56,827 nucleotides of DNA from an uncultured Bdellovibrionales bacterium (GTDB lineage Bacteria > Bdellovibrionota > Bdellovibrionia > Bdellovibrionales > Bdellovibrionaceae), in the NCBI GenBank assembly GCA_903926205.1, contig CAIYID010000046.1:1-56827 (forward strand). The letters are read 5' to 3'. Below the pieces are notes generated by a model, which saw only the letters and a list, made by a program, of their open reading frames with translations, had not been told where the DNA came from and did not search any database. Shown here one piece after another: positions 27,826 through 32,238 of the stretch. The translations under genes and the position numbers were made by a program. Position 1 is the first letter of the stretch; every line of letters begins with the position of its first letter.

Positions 27826-27914
27826 TTCATCATCATACTTAAAATATTTCAGAAATGGTAAATGAGCCTGCAAGGTCTCTGGACTTTAATCTTGTGAGGT
27901 GTTATCTCCTGCCT

Positions 27915-28751
27915 ATGAGTGAAATGATTCCTGAACGTCCCTGGACTGAGTATACTTTTGTGGCTTTCGATACGGAGACGAGTGGGGCCTACCCTTTGGG
28001 GGCCGATGTTGTCGAGTTTGGAGCCGTCAAATGGCAGGGGGGCAAAATAATTGATGAAATGCAGACTCTGCTTAAACCTTCCACGCTAATGTCGGACTTT
28101 ATTATTGGAATTCATGGAATCACTAATGAAATGGTGGAGTCGGCCCCACTCATGAAAGATAAAATTAGCGAAATATCTGAGTTTTTTAAGGGTGCAGTCG
28201 TGATGGCTCACCATGCGCCTTTCGATTTGGGTTTTATGACCGTGGAGTTTGAGAAATATCATATTCCCTTACCTCAAGACGCGGTTTTATGTACCAGTTT
28301 GCTTTCTCGGCAATTAATCAAAGAGAGCCCCAATCATAAATTACAAACCCTGATTAAATTTTTGAATCTGCCTCAAGGCACAGCTCATCGAGCGATGGAC
28401 GATGCAAAAGCTTGTTTGTCTGTGGGATTAGAGTGCATGAATCGCGTGGGAACTTGGGCACCGCTTTCTGTTATAAGTAGTAAAATGGGAAAAACTCTTG
28501 ATTGGAAAAAGTACGAACTACTTTTTTATAGACAGCCGAAATATCAAACCGTGGTGGAATCGCTGCTAACTCAGAAAGACCTAGATATTGTTTATGAAGG
28601 TGGAAGCGTCAAAGGCAAACCACGCCGAATTTCACCCATCGGCATTGTCAGAAATCCTGATGGAGACTATGTCATGGCTGTCTGTCATCTTGATCGAGCT
28701 CAAAAACGTTTTTATTTTGATAAAATTTCAGATCTTTCCATCGTCTTTTAG
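27915..28751 (+). CDS. DnaQ-like (DEDDh) 3'-5' exonuclease
   Basis: The product is 278 residues from ATG 27915 (an earlier Met at 27855 lies in the divergent gene's start). Exonuclease motifs: VAFDTETSGAYPLG (Exo I, DxE), IIGIHGITNEMV, HHAPFDLGFM (Exo II, HxAxFD) and HRAMDDAKA (Exo III, HxxxxD), the DEDDh set. Such domains proofread in PolIII epsilon, or occur in other nucleic-acid enzymes. The C-terminal 100 residues (KKYELLFYRQPKYQ... KGKPRRISPIGI) form an extra domain related by eye to WYL/BRCT-less extensions; its role is unclear. It overlaps the convergent LspA-HAMP gene by 24 bp. Confidence 0.87.
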   Translation: MSEMIPERPWTEYTFVAFDTETSGAYPLGADVVEFGAVKWQGGKIIDEMQTLLKPSTLMSDFIIGIHGITNEMVESAPLMKDKISEISEFFKGAVVMAHHAPFDLGFMTVEFEKYHIPLPQDAVLCTSLLSRQLIKESPNHKLQTLIKFLNLPQGTAHRAMDDAKACLSVGLECMNRVGTWAPLSVISSKMGKTLDWKKYELLFYRQPKYQTVVESLLTQKDLDIVYEGGSVKGKPRRISPIGIVRNPDGDYVMAVCHLDRAQKRFYFDKISDLSIVF

Positions 28752-29771
28752 CTGGATATTTTTTGCAGTCTCAATATTCAATGAATCGATGTTTAATGGA
28801 ACAGGCTCTTTTTTCTCTGGCTCATTTTTTAAGAGATCCGTTCTTACTGGACTGATAAGATTTTCGACGACATCAGCGGCTAACTTAGTTTTTACAGAAT
28901 GCGCAAGAGCCTCTAACTCGTGAAATTCATCATGTTCCCTCAATTTGAAAGGACGAAGACTTGTGTTTTTTTCTTTCGCTTCGACGAGATCATTCATATA
29001 TTTTTCAAAGGCATAGATTGGGCCGGCAATTTTGTGTGAAATGATTTTTCCGACAGTGAAGAGTCCAATGCAAAAGCCAATACAAACGAGAGTGAAGGTA
29101 ATGATATAAGGAATTAAAAATTTATTGATGACTTGTGCGTTAGGTCCGACCATTTCAACCATAGCCACTTTAAAATAGGTGTAGGAAAAAACCATTGCGA
29201 TCAAACTGATGCTCAGGCCCACTCCAGTCAGTAGATAACAATATTTAAGTTGAAAATGACGGTTGATCCAGTATTTGCGTCGAGAATTTTTTTCTGGCCA
29301 AATTTTTTCTCCCTCTTTGGCGATGGAATAAACAACCATGAAATAACCGATCCATTGAACAGCATCAGCGATATTAAATGCCGGCGATAGATAAGAGTCT
29401 TTCATTCCAAGAATGATAAAGTCTGTCACTTGTCCATAAACAATACGATCTGTGACGTTCCCAAGAATCCCGCCGAGTAAAACAGACATTCCACTTCTTA
29501 AGATCATTGATTTGATTGGTAATAAATATTGAAAAAGAGCATAGATAACGACGAGAAAAGCACCACTGGTGGAAAGAGTAACCACTCGAAGAAGAGGCGG
29601 AAGATCCGCAAATAATCCAAGCATGGCTCCAGGATTGTGATGCAAAGAAAAATGGACCACACCTATTGAGTGATAGCCCTGAAGTGTTTCCGCCCAGGTT
29701 TTAGAGATTCGATCCAGGTACCACACAATCACGAGTGGTAAGAAGACTATTAACCATTCTTTTCGTTTCAT
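28728..29771 (-). CDS. lspA: Signal peptidase II (LspA) fused to a HAMP domain
   Basis: The product is 347 residues from Met at 29771, which follows the previous stop by 10 bp. Residues 1-155 are LspA: four membrane helices, HHNPGAMLGLF, GNVTDRIVYGQVTDFI and SPAFNIADAVQW. The catalytic Asp pair is D117 and D136, spaced 19 as in known LspA. Two further helices follow (about 177-199 and 220-240), then a HAMP-like domain: GKIISHKIAGPIYAFEKYM and LREHDEFHELEALAHSVKTK. The tail is polar. LspA cleaves lipidated prolipoproteins; regulation by HAMP signalling is inferred. LspA proteins are usually 160-200 residues and end after the last helix. Confidence 0.88.
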   Translation of the reverse strand: MKRKEWLIVFLPLVIVWYLDRISKTWAETLQGYHSIGVVHFSLHHNPGAMLGLFADLPPLLRVVTLSTSGAFLVVIYALFQYLLPIKSMILRSGMSVLLGGILGNVTDRIVYGQVTDFIILGMKDSYLSPAFNIADAVQWIGYFMVVYSIAKEGEKIWPEKNSRRKYWINRHFQLKYCYLLTGVGLSISLIAMVFSYTYFKVAMVEMVGPNAQVINKFLIPYIITFTLVCIGFCIGLFTVGKIISHKIAGPIYAFEKYMNDLVEAKEKNTSLRPFKLREHDEFHELEALAHSVKTKLAADVVENLISPVRTDLLKNEPEKKEPVPLNIDSLNIETAKNIQLKDDGKI

Positions 29772-29781
29772 AAAGAAAAGC

Positions 29782-30693
29782 TTAAGGGATGTTTGACGTA
29801 TCGGCAACGACCGTCTGATTTTTGCCATTCCTTTTTGCATGATAAAGGGCTTGGTCAGCCGATTCTATCAGAAGTCTAGTATCATTTATTTTTCCCTCTA
29901 AGGTGCTAACGCCAAGACTTAAGGTGATGCCACTCAACAAAGGAGACGTCGATTGATTGCAGGCAATACGAATTTTCTCAGCGAGTTCTTTCGCACCCTG
30001 TGCGTCTGTATGTGGCAAAATAATTGCAAATTCATCGCCACCATATCTACAAACAACGTCTGTGGTTCGGACTCCATTTTTGAGGAGTTCTGCGACCTCT
30101 TTCAAGACTTGGTCACCCATGGGATGACCCTTGCTATCGTTTACGTTTTTTAAAAAATCCACGTCAATTAAGGCGAGGGAGACCAAGTGAGAATAACGAA
30201 GCGCTCGGGCTACTTCATTTTGTATGCTGGCTTGAAAATGCCGATGGTTAAAGAGGCCCGTAATAGAGTCTGTAATTGCTAATTTTTTTAGCTGGTGTTT
30301 TTCTTTAAAAACTTCGTGAAGAACTAAAATCTCCTGCATTTGAAACAATAAGAGATCGTTCTCCCAAGGTTTCATGAGTACGCGGTGAAGGATTTGTTCA
30401 TGCATGGCTTTAGTTAAATCTTGAATGGCAAGATGACCTGTCAAAATGATTCTCATTGAGCTTGGTGAAAGCACCATTGCTTCTTGCAGGAATTCCAAGC
30501 CAGACATTTCTGGCATAATGTAATCACTAAAAATAATAGAGGGAATGAGCCCATTTCTGAGTAATTCGAGTGCCTGCTTCGGTGATTCAGCAGCGATGAC
30601 TTCAAATTCAGACCGAAAAAGTCTGGCCAAGGCCGCTTGAGTGGAGGGGTTGTCTTCGACCAAGAGTAGTGAATGTTTTCGTTCTGACCACAT
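29782..30693 (-). CDS. Receiver-GGDEF response regulator, diguanylate cyclase
   Basis: The product is about 303 residues from Met at 30693 (Met at 30729 is possible). A receiver domain starts with SLLLVEDNPST and has the phospho-acceptor Asp in IIFSDYIMPEMSG (about residue 57) and the conserved Lys in LMKPWEND. A GGDEF domain follows after a short helix: DSITGLFNHRHF, DVDFLKNVNDSKGHPMGD and CRYGGDEFAIILP. The intact GGDEF suggests c-di-GMP synthesis, and RTTD five residues before it is an I-site for product inhibition. It is directly upstream of the LspA-HAMP gene (10 bp) on the same strand. No EAL domain. Confidence 0.92.
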   Translation of the reverse strand: MWSERKHSLLLVEDNPSTQAALARLFRSEFEVIAAESPKQALELLRNGLIPSIIFSDYIMPEMSGLEFLQEAMVLSPSSMRIILTGHLAIQDLTKAMHEQILHRVLMKPWENDLLLFQMQEILVLHEVFKEKHQLKKLAITDSITGLFNHRHFQASIQNEVARALRYSHLVSLALIDVDFLKNVNDSKGHPMGDQVLKEVAELLKNGVRTTDVVCRYGGDEFAIILPHTDAQGAKELAEKIRIACNQSTSPLLSGITLSLGVSTLEGKINDTRLLIESADQALYHAKRNGKNQTVVADTSNIP

Positions 30694-30768
30694 TATATTA
30701 TTGTGACTTGGAGCGGGTTCATTACACAAGGGTTTGCCTGTTAAATAATGCAGTGTTTTAATTCAGAA

Positions 30769-32238
30769 ATGAAAAATTTCAGTAAATTGGTAAAAAAACA
30801 CAGCCTATTGATTCCCTTTTTAGTTTTCTTCATCTTATTTGTTCTAACACTGAGCTTAAAAGCTAGTACAGATAAACAAATCTCAGACTGGCAGAGCCGG
30901 ATAAATAAAATTCTTTATTCTTCAAAAATTTCAAAAGCCCATTTAGGAATCTTTATCAGTGATGATTCTTCTGGGGAAAAACCGATTTTTTCTTTGAATG
31001 CCTCAGCGAAGATTATTCCGGCTTCAGTGACAAAATTAGTCACTTCTGCAGTGGTACTTGAAGAACTTCCTCCGGGTACCAAATTCAAAACTGGACTTTG
31101 GTCAAAAGCGAAAGTTGAGAAGTCACATCTTAAGGGTGATCTTTATTTGAAAGGCGGAGGTGATCCATCTTTTGTGTCAGAAAACATGTGGTTTTTAGTG
31201 AATTCATTTTTACGTACCCGAGTGAATACAATCGAGGGCGATATTATTGTTGATGATAGTCTTTTTGATCAAAGTCGATTCGACTCCAGTCGCCAAGAGG
31301 AAAGAGTTGATCGTGCTTATGATGCGCCAACAGGAGCAATGTCTTTTAATTGGAATTCAGTAAATATTTTTATTCGACCCGGGACTTCTTCGGGCGAGGC
31401 CGCCGTGGTCTTCGCGGATCCCGAAAATGATTATATTCAATTAAAAGCGCAAGTGAAAACCTCTTCGGCGGGCTCGTCCAACTCAATCTTGGTTGAAAGA
31501 GAGGCTCGCCCGGGCAATGAGGGTGACTTGGTGATTGTGAAAGGAAAAATTGCTGCAGACTCGAAAGAGGTCACTGTTTATAAAAACATCACCCATCCTG
31601 ATCTTTGGTCTGGGTTTAACTTACGAAGTTTTTTGAAACAAAGGGGAATTGAGGTTCTTGGAAAAATCCGCTCTGGCATAATCCCTGCGGGTGCTAATCT
31701 TTTGGCAGAATCTGAAAGTAAACCGGTAGAGCTTATCCTGGCAGATATGAATAAGTTTTCGAATAATTTTGTGGCAGAAATGTTGGCAAAAAGTGCGGCA
31801 GCCAAAATTTCTGTGCCAGGTAATATTTCTCGGGCGATGGAGATGTCTAGGGACTATATGAAAAAACTCGGAATTAAAGAATCAGATTTTGAGTTACAAA
31901 ACCCATCAGGTTTAACGCGCGACAATCGACTGACCGCGTTTGGACTGTGGAAGGTTCTTAGTGACCTTGAAAAACGTTTTCAAATTCAGCCAGAACTTAT
32001 GACCTCTTTGCCGATTGGTGGAGTTGATGGCACTCTAAAAAAGCGCTTTAAAGAAAGCGCAGGCCTGCGCCAAGTAAGAGCAAAGACGGGATCTTTAACG
32101 GGCGTTGTATCAATGGCAGGATATCTGTCTGGACCTGAAGGACATCCGATTCCCTTTGTAATGATGTACAATGGATCGGATGATGAAAGCGCGGTTCGAG
32201 TCTTGTTTGATAAATTGTGTTTGGCTGTGATTGAATAG
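30769..32238 (+). CDS. dacB: D-alanyl-D-alanine carboxypeptidase/endopeptidase, PBP4-type
   Basis: The product is about 489 residues (start at 30769; ATG 30748 also possible). It has a hydrophobic signal/anchor (SLLIPFLVFFILFVLTLSLKA) and peptidase S13 motifs: SxxK in IPASVTKLVT (Ser near residue 86), SxN in MNKFSNNFVAEML and KTG in VRAKTGSLTGVVSMAGYL. PBP4 enzymes trim the last D-Ala and cut cross-links in periplasmic peptidoglycan. The large insert between the first two motifs, with beta strands of domains II and III, is as in DacB. Divergent from the response regulator gene; the transglycosylase follows 15 bp after its stop. Confidence 0.9.
   Translation: MKNFSKLVKKHSLLIPFLVFFILFVLTLSLKASTDKQISDWQSRINKILYSSKISKAHLGIFISDDSSGEKPIFSLNASAKIIPASVTKLVTSAVVLEELPPGTKFKTGLWSKAKVEKSHLKGDLYLKGGGDPSFVSENMWFLVNSFLRTRVNTIEGDIIVDDSLFDQSRFDSSRQEERVDRAYDAPTGAMSFNWNSVNIFIRPGTSSGEAAVVFADPENDYIQLKAQVKTSSAGSSNSILVEREARPGNEGDLVIVKGKIAADSKEVTVYKNITHPDLWSGFNLRSFLKQRGIEVLGKIRSGIIPAGANLLAESESKPVELILADMNKFSNNFVAEMLAKSAAAKISVPGNISRAMEMSRDYMKKLGIKESDFELQNPSGLTRDNRLTAFGLWKVLSDLEKRFQIQPELMTSLPIGGVDGTLKKRFKESAGLRQVRAKTGSLTGVVSMAGYLSGPEGHPIPFVMMYNGSDDESAVRVLFDKLCLAVIE

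Follow-up and report, generated by a model that had tools for sequence, protein, structure and literature searches.

To our knowledge, the signal peptidase II step of lipoprotein maturation has generally been described as the work of a single constitutive enzyme that follows one lipobox rule. HAMP modules, which usually relay signals, follow directly on a transmembrane helix in proteins such as WalK, BaeS and the chemoreceptors, and consist of a helix, a connector and a second helix. In an accepted lipobox, position -1 is G, A or S (PMC6952399; PMC8048626). The enzyme LspA displays 14 highly conserved residues, listed for the S. aureus protein (PMC6952399), and both of its termini are cytoplasmic (PMC8048626). 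Our literature search found no account of a Bdellovibrio lspA, of an LspA-HAMP fusion, or of non-canonical lipoboxes in these bacteria. Judged from its sequence, what the locus described here adds is another signal peptidase II, spread across the phylum and associated with an unusual lipobox.

An LspA fused to a HAMP-like module

The window, as we call the whole stretch of 56,827 nucleotides that was analysed (from an uncultured Bdellovibrionales bacterium, contig CAIYID010000046.1), carries a fusion gene that we name lspH. The gene and its parts are as follows:

28728..29771, minus strand: lspH, the LspA-HAMP fusion gene, an unbroken ORF of 347 aa
29307..29771, minus strand: LspA (signal peptidase II) part, residues 1-155, from the PF01252 and structure matches
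29421..29423, minus strand: codon of catalytic Asp117, aligned to S. aureus Asp118 and invariant in 94/94 members
29364..29366, minus strand: codon of catalytic Asp136, aligned to S. aureus Asp136 and invariant in 94/94 members
29040..29306, minus strand: linker (R164...Q174 motif) and two extra transmembrane helices, residues 156-244, from AlphaFold and stand-alone homologues
28845..29039, minus strand: divergent HAMP-like segment, residues 245-309, from hhalign; G250, P251, R278 and D281 are invariant
28728..28844, minus strand: variable C-terminal tail, residues 310-347 and stop codon; unconserved, with a low-confidence pLDDT of 50-61

The original prediction held that one reading frame joins LspA to later membrane helices, and this is borne out: the frame is continuous, and no stop lies between the parts in any relative read. 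The start at ATG 29771 is supported, because the relatives start at the identical residue. Nor is the fusion a product of chance, since it is matched in 57/60 relatives, over approximately residues 1-297 or more, with 40-77% identity over ~300 residues. The AlphaFold model of LspH (mean pLDDT 87) agrees with the two further membrane helices predicted after LspA, followed by a helix-connector-helix arrangement (helices at residues 171-208, 212-268 and 285-309).

The N-terminal part is a complete LspA with both catalytic aspartates, as had been proposed. PF01252 (Peptidase_A8) matches residues 14-150 with E 3.6e-23 and 82.8 bits, against a Pfam cut-off of 25, and all 14/14 hallmark residues are present in the window's protein (list from PMC6952399). 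Across the 94 fusion proteins these residues are nearly all invariant, even at 25-30% identity, with Asp117 and Asp136 retained in every member. The AlphaFold model superimposes on solved LspA structures, namely 5dir with Z 15.9 and rmsd 2.4 over 137 residues and 6ryo with Z 15.1, and the fold matches to solved LspA span Z 13.7-15.9. LspH therefore shares with LspA the fold, the aspartyl dyad, the hallmark residues and a four-helix core with beta-cradle. By contrast, the lspA equivalog model TIGR00077 (NCBIfam) scores LspH at 48.8 bits, below its cut-off of 73.95, so the protein belongs to the LspA family and is not the housekeeping equivalog. It differs from LspA in the extracellular loop, which reads N-x-G-x-x-x-G in LspH and N-x-G-A-A-F-S in LspA, in forming a clade of its own, in its permanent two-helix and HAMP-like C-terminal module, and in its linkage to proteins with non-canonical lipoboxes. 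The loop that covers the substrate pocket includes position 52, which is Gly in 93/94 fusions and Ser in E. coli LspA.

The C-terminal module

The HAMP pattern claimed earlier is located in two segments, SHKIAGPIYAFEKYM at residues 245-259 and HDEFHEL at residues 280-286, and the evidence for a HAMP domain is divided. The Pfam HAMP profile (PF00672) does not match the window's LspH or any of 22 relatives (0/23). Profile-profile comparison does detect the similarity: hhalign aligns the module to a profile of 29 HAMPs of the same order with E 4.3e-5 for the HAMP segment alone and E 8.9e-7 with the preceding transmembrane helix included, against E 0.013 for the best among 30 column-shuffled controls. 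Intermediate sequences point the same way. The longer stand-alone relatives of the module give Pfam HAMP matches under the curated cut-off (E 2e-4 to 5e-4), and stand-alone relatives also align weakly with the TM2-HAMP region in models of WalK, BaeS and chemoreceptors. Given the absence of a Pfam HAMP match, the label rests on the profile-profile comparison and on these intermediates, by which the module is likely to be a divergent HAMP.

The predicted arrangement of helices is consistent with this assignment. A transmembrane helix runs directly into the helix-connector-helix (helices 212-268 and 285-309), and does so likewise when the module is folded alone. A WalK model ranks first after LspA in a structural comparison of whole LspH (Z 8.5, rmsd 3.2, 143 aligned), and WalK ranks first when the module alone is compared with the PDB (Z 7.3, rmsd 6.2, 149 aligned), tied in both cases with unrelated helical proteins; the Aer2 HAMP 4i44 reaches Z 5.3 (rmsd 5.7, 86 aligned). 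The module shares with HAMP domains the position after a membrane helix, a first helix with the G-P motif and a DE(F) near the second, and G250, P251, R278 and D281 are invariant in 94/94 members. Unlike HAMP domains, it carries invariant motifs of its own (SHxxxGPxxAFE and LRxxDxF) and falls below Pfam detection. Also unlike HAMP proteins, it leads into no output part such as a kinase, receptor or cyclase; in nearly all members neither an output nor an input domain is present, which agrees with the original description of a HAMP part that leads to no output domain. As the termini of LspA are cytoplasmic (PMC8048626) and LspH adds two more helices, the HAMP-like part should lie in the cytoplasm.

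The same module exists in Bdellovibrionota as free-standing proteins of 140-240 aa that lack the LspA part. These are homologous to LspH over the whole module, including its R-x-x-x-(L/W)-I-x-x-x-F-Q start; unlike LspH, they contain no LspA, and they match no Pfam family above cut-off. They constitute a phylum-wide family of small proteins without an output domain (L020:916-1425, minus strand; L034:1423-1962, plus strand; L207-L232), and the L020 copy lies directly downstream of lspH. One locus, L123:4421-5878 (minus strand), encodes a natural triple fusion of LspA, the HAMP-like module and an AhpC/TSA peroxiredoxin (485 aa), and adjoins genes for a DUF4331 protein with LQNC and for a HupE/UreJ protein. 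Several relatives (G013:C22, G010:C19, G001:C29, G038:C19 and G043:C17) also possess very long open frames, of 1,550-1,840 aa, in which HAMP domains are repeated in tandem many times.

Because HAMP modules are usually signal relays, LspH could be read as a receptor and not an enzyme, its LspA part binding a lipopeptide or prolipoprotein and its HAMP part reporting to the cytoplasm. The existence of stand-alone two-helix proteins of the same family is in keeping with such a role. The retention of the catalytic Asp pair in all 94 members, with nearly all other hallmark residues, at 25-30% identity would be needless in a pure receptor, and we hold this reading to be very improbable.

Genes around lspH

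Three genes flank lspH in the window:

29782..30693, minus strand: receiver-GGDEF diguanylate cyclase gene, 10 bp upstream of lspH (Pfam domains)
30748..32238, plus strand: dacB-like (peptidase S13) gene, divergent neighbour (Pfam)
27855..28751, plus strand: exonuclease RNase_T-WYL gene, convergent, sharing 24 bp with the end of lspH (Pfam)

Two of these neighbours are persistent: dacB lies within 4.5 kb of lspH in 67/75 loci of the window's class, and the RNase_T-WYL gene, in which an RNase_T exonuclease is fused to a WYL domain (window 27855-28751), within 2.5 kb in 59/73 loci. The receiver-GGDEF gene is as first described, with its end at 29782 facing the lspH start at 29771, and with GGDEF and the I-site RxxD (RTTD, five residues before GGDEF) both intact. 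Among the 75 loci, it is found directly upstream of lspH in 18, on deep as well as shallow branches. It is not directly upstream of lspH in B. bacteriovorus, and no receiver-GGDEF gene was found beside lspH at 16 distant loci. The suggestion that c-di-GMP controls lipoprotein maturation thus survives as a possible link at the present locus, and is rejected as a general explanation, since a neighbour found in 18/75 loci is no property of the system.

These counts bear on a reading in which LspH has the ordinary lipobox preference of a signal peptidase II and is under signal control, its HAMP-like module turning lipoprotein maturation on or off in response to a cytoplasmic partner (for instance the receiver-GGDEF protein), and any link to unusual lipoboxes being secondary. 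The support for a HAMP-like module, the adjacent cyclase gene here and at the other loci, including early-branching loci such as L096, and the AhpC/TSA domain that follows the HAMP part in one relative are all in accord with it. However, most loci and B. bacteriovorus lack the GGDEF neighbour, the 16 distant loci lack it although many of them have odd-lipobox neighbours, and nearly all members are devoid of an output or input domain; we therefore regard signal control of this kind as unlikely.

A gene for a peptide-binding lipoprotein, SBP_bac_5-like by eye and not by profile, immediately precedes lspH, or else the GGDEF gene, in 29/75 loci (L060, L066, L067, L091 and 25 others). These lipoproteins were considered as a source of odd lipoboxes and rejected: the ones read carry the canonical motif, apart from a Q at -1 in L108.

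Distribution and paralogy

The fusion that the original prediction suggested seeking in related genomes is widespread. Besides the 57/60 relatives, 81/192 sampled genomes of the phylum match LspH at E 1e-20 or better, and the named fusion-bearing records, among them B. bacteriovorus strain kdesi, belong to Bdellovibrionales and other Bdellovibrionota. In 14 genomes without a strong match, a profile search recovered LspA-like and module-like matches separately and unfused, while the fusion was recovered from two positive controls. A scan of GTDB contigs, with search patterns built from the window's class, matched only Bdellovibrionota and two LspA of Lachnospiraceae, and a plasmid search returned ordinary LspA only. 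Two genomes without the fusion show two tandem LspA-like matches (G061:C65:509-1476 and G076:C56:21060-22032). A record titled Streptomyces griseus (L041, CALQIT020000013.1) contains a Bdellovibrionota locus with the same synteny, and its metagenome bin looks mislabelled.

LspH coexists with a normal LspA. The window's genome has, on another contig, an LspA of 167 aa in an ileS-lspA-lgt arrangement, and of 40 relatives 39 possess the fusion and 39 the short LspA, both exceptions being genomes that are ~80% complete. In an unrooted maximum likelihood tree of 72 LspA sequences, a single branch with 100/100 support divides the fusions from the short LspAs. We read LspH and the housekeeping LspA as ancient paralogues.

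The presence of a normal lspA in most genomes is also what would be seen if LspH were a redundant or inhibitor-tolerant spare LspA, with the C-terminal module acting as an anchor only. Extra lspA genes of the kind are found in Myxococcus antibiotic clusters. Against this, the fixed genomic context (dacB in 67/75 loci) and the invariant C-terminal motif are unlike a spare or mobile resistance copy, and the conserved residues grouped around LspA inhibitors are retained, which makes the spare copy a quite improbable explanation.

Odd lipoboxes beside lspH in distant classes

The neighbours of lspH in distant classes include proteins with the N-terminal sequences LLLVTYNHC, LLLLSYNHC, LLGLYNQC and GIFTVFQNC. 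These resemble canonical lipoproteins ([LVI][ASTVI][GAS]C) in having a positively charged n-region, an h-region and an invariant Cys, and differ from them in having F or Y at -3, mostly N, Q or T at -2, and N, H or Q at -1. With signal peptides called by regular expression on crude gene calls and not by a trained predictor, 11/148 genes at 16 distant loci displayed an h-region followed by a bulky polar residue at -1 and Cys. From these 16 loci we fixed a stricter motif, an h-region followed by [FY][NQTHS][NHQ]C, before scoring 19 further lspH loci. The strict motif appeared there in 17/234 genes, at 12/19 loci (7/19 had no such neighbour), compared with 2/1,899 genes outside lspH loci in four genomes (Fisher p 4e-15, a value that overstates independence because a single inherited cassette accounts for many linked cases, leaving about six unrelated families). 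Canonical lipoboxes were not enriched at lspH loci (9/234 vs 83/1,914 in the background), and at the loci of normal lspA the strict motif was found in 0/109 genes. When the Cys position was left free, Cys filled it in 20/24 cases at the test loci; no residue was prominent in the sample of the window's genome (G000) or at the loci of the window's class.

The linkage is also visible within single genomes. The only three cases among 385 genes (400 kb) of genome G128 all lie within 5 kb of lspH, and its congener G066, which does not have the fusion, shows no odd-lipobox case in 400 kb. The linked genes are often immediately adjacent to lspH on the same strand, and besides the inherited cassette they include several unrelated families: a 348 aa NHL-type protein, proteins of 384 aa, 1036 aa and 1203 aa, and a DUF4331 protein (LQNC). 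In the largest blast-linked group, 21 sequences, position -1 is H, Q or N and never G, A or S, although this pattern counts less than the linkage, because the sequences were picked by the motif. A 440-aa cassette protein with an odd lipobox is found at E <1e-70 in 16/192 genomes, and lspH is present in 16/16 of them.

The cassette itself is conserved and contains a Tat-type signal protein, a CxxCH-containing odd-lipobox protein, a second odd-lipobox protein and lspH (L122, L124, L126, L316, L319-L323, L326, L328 and L330); its tested members have no Pfam family.

A candidate second route of lipoprotein maturation

We propose that LspH is a further, catalytically competent signal peptidase II, reserved for pre-lipoproteins with non-canonical lipoboxes and dimerised or gated by its HAMP-like module, a proposal in which our credence and our doubt are about equal. 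The LspA part would lie in the inner membrane with its aspartyl dyad at the periplasmic face, and the helices of the permanently fused module would bring the chain back to the cytoplasm. Family membership and conserved residues suggest that the dyad cleaves prolipoproteins. The expected substrates would combine an aromatic residue at -3, a polar one at -2 and a bulky polar one (N, H or Q) at -1, and would be poor for the normal LspA; the altered loop that covers the pocket could leave space for a bulkier residue at -1. The normal enzyme may, for its part, tolerate odd lipoboxes. The HAMP-like part would most probably dimerise LspH, and it may couple activity to a cytoplasmic partner, although no partner is conserved.

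Extended to the phylum, the proposal becomes more tentative and falls somewhat short of an even chance: Bdellovibrionota would operate, beside the normal route, a second maturation route whose code [FY]-[NQT]-[HNQ]-C is read by an LspA paralogue with a HAMP-like switch. If so, a class of proteins is missing from the lipoproteins predicted for these predatory bacteria, lipoprotein maturation can be divided between enzymes, and an intramembrane protease can bear a HAMP module.

For the window's own genome the substrate claim is an extension from relatives, since the single strict case encountered there is unlinked to lspH. It is an FQNC protein (G000:C60:128997-129749), found in a census of ~780 genes, about a quarter of the genome, and an orthologue search among relatives returned only low-coverage matches in two other genomes. 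Odd-lipobox genes are rare throughout the window's class and unlinked to lspH; one example, from a genome of the same family (G007), is an FTNC protein with a subtilase domain. E. coli usually has one copy of Lgt, the enzyme preceding LspA. Four Lgt (PF01790) paralogues are present in the window's genome (G000:C78:21358-22089, C81:5384-6364, C91:68056-68718 and C83:42393-43088; L361-L364), none of them tied to an odd lipobox, and this number of copies leaves room for a parallel route.
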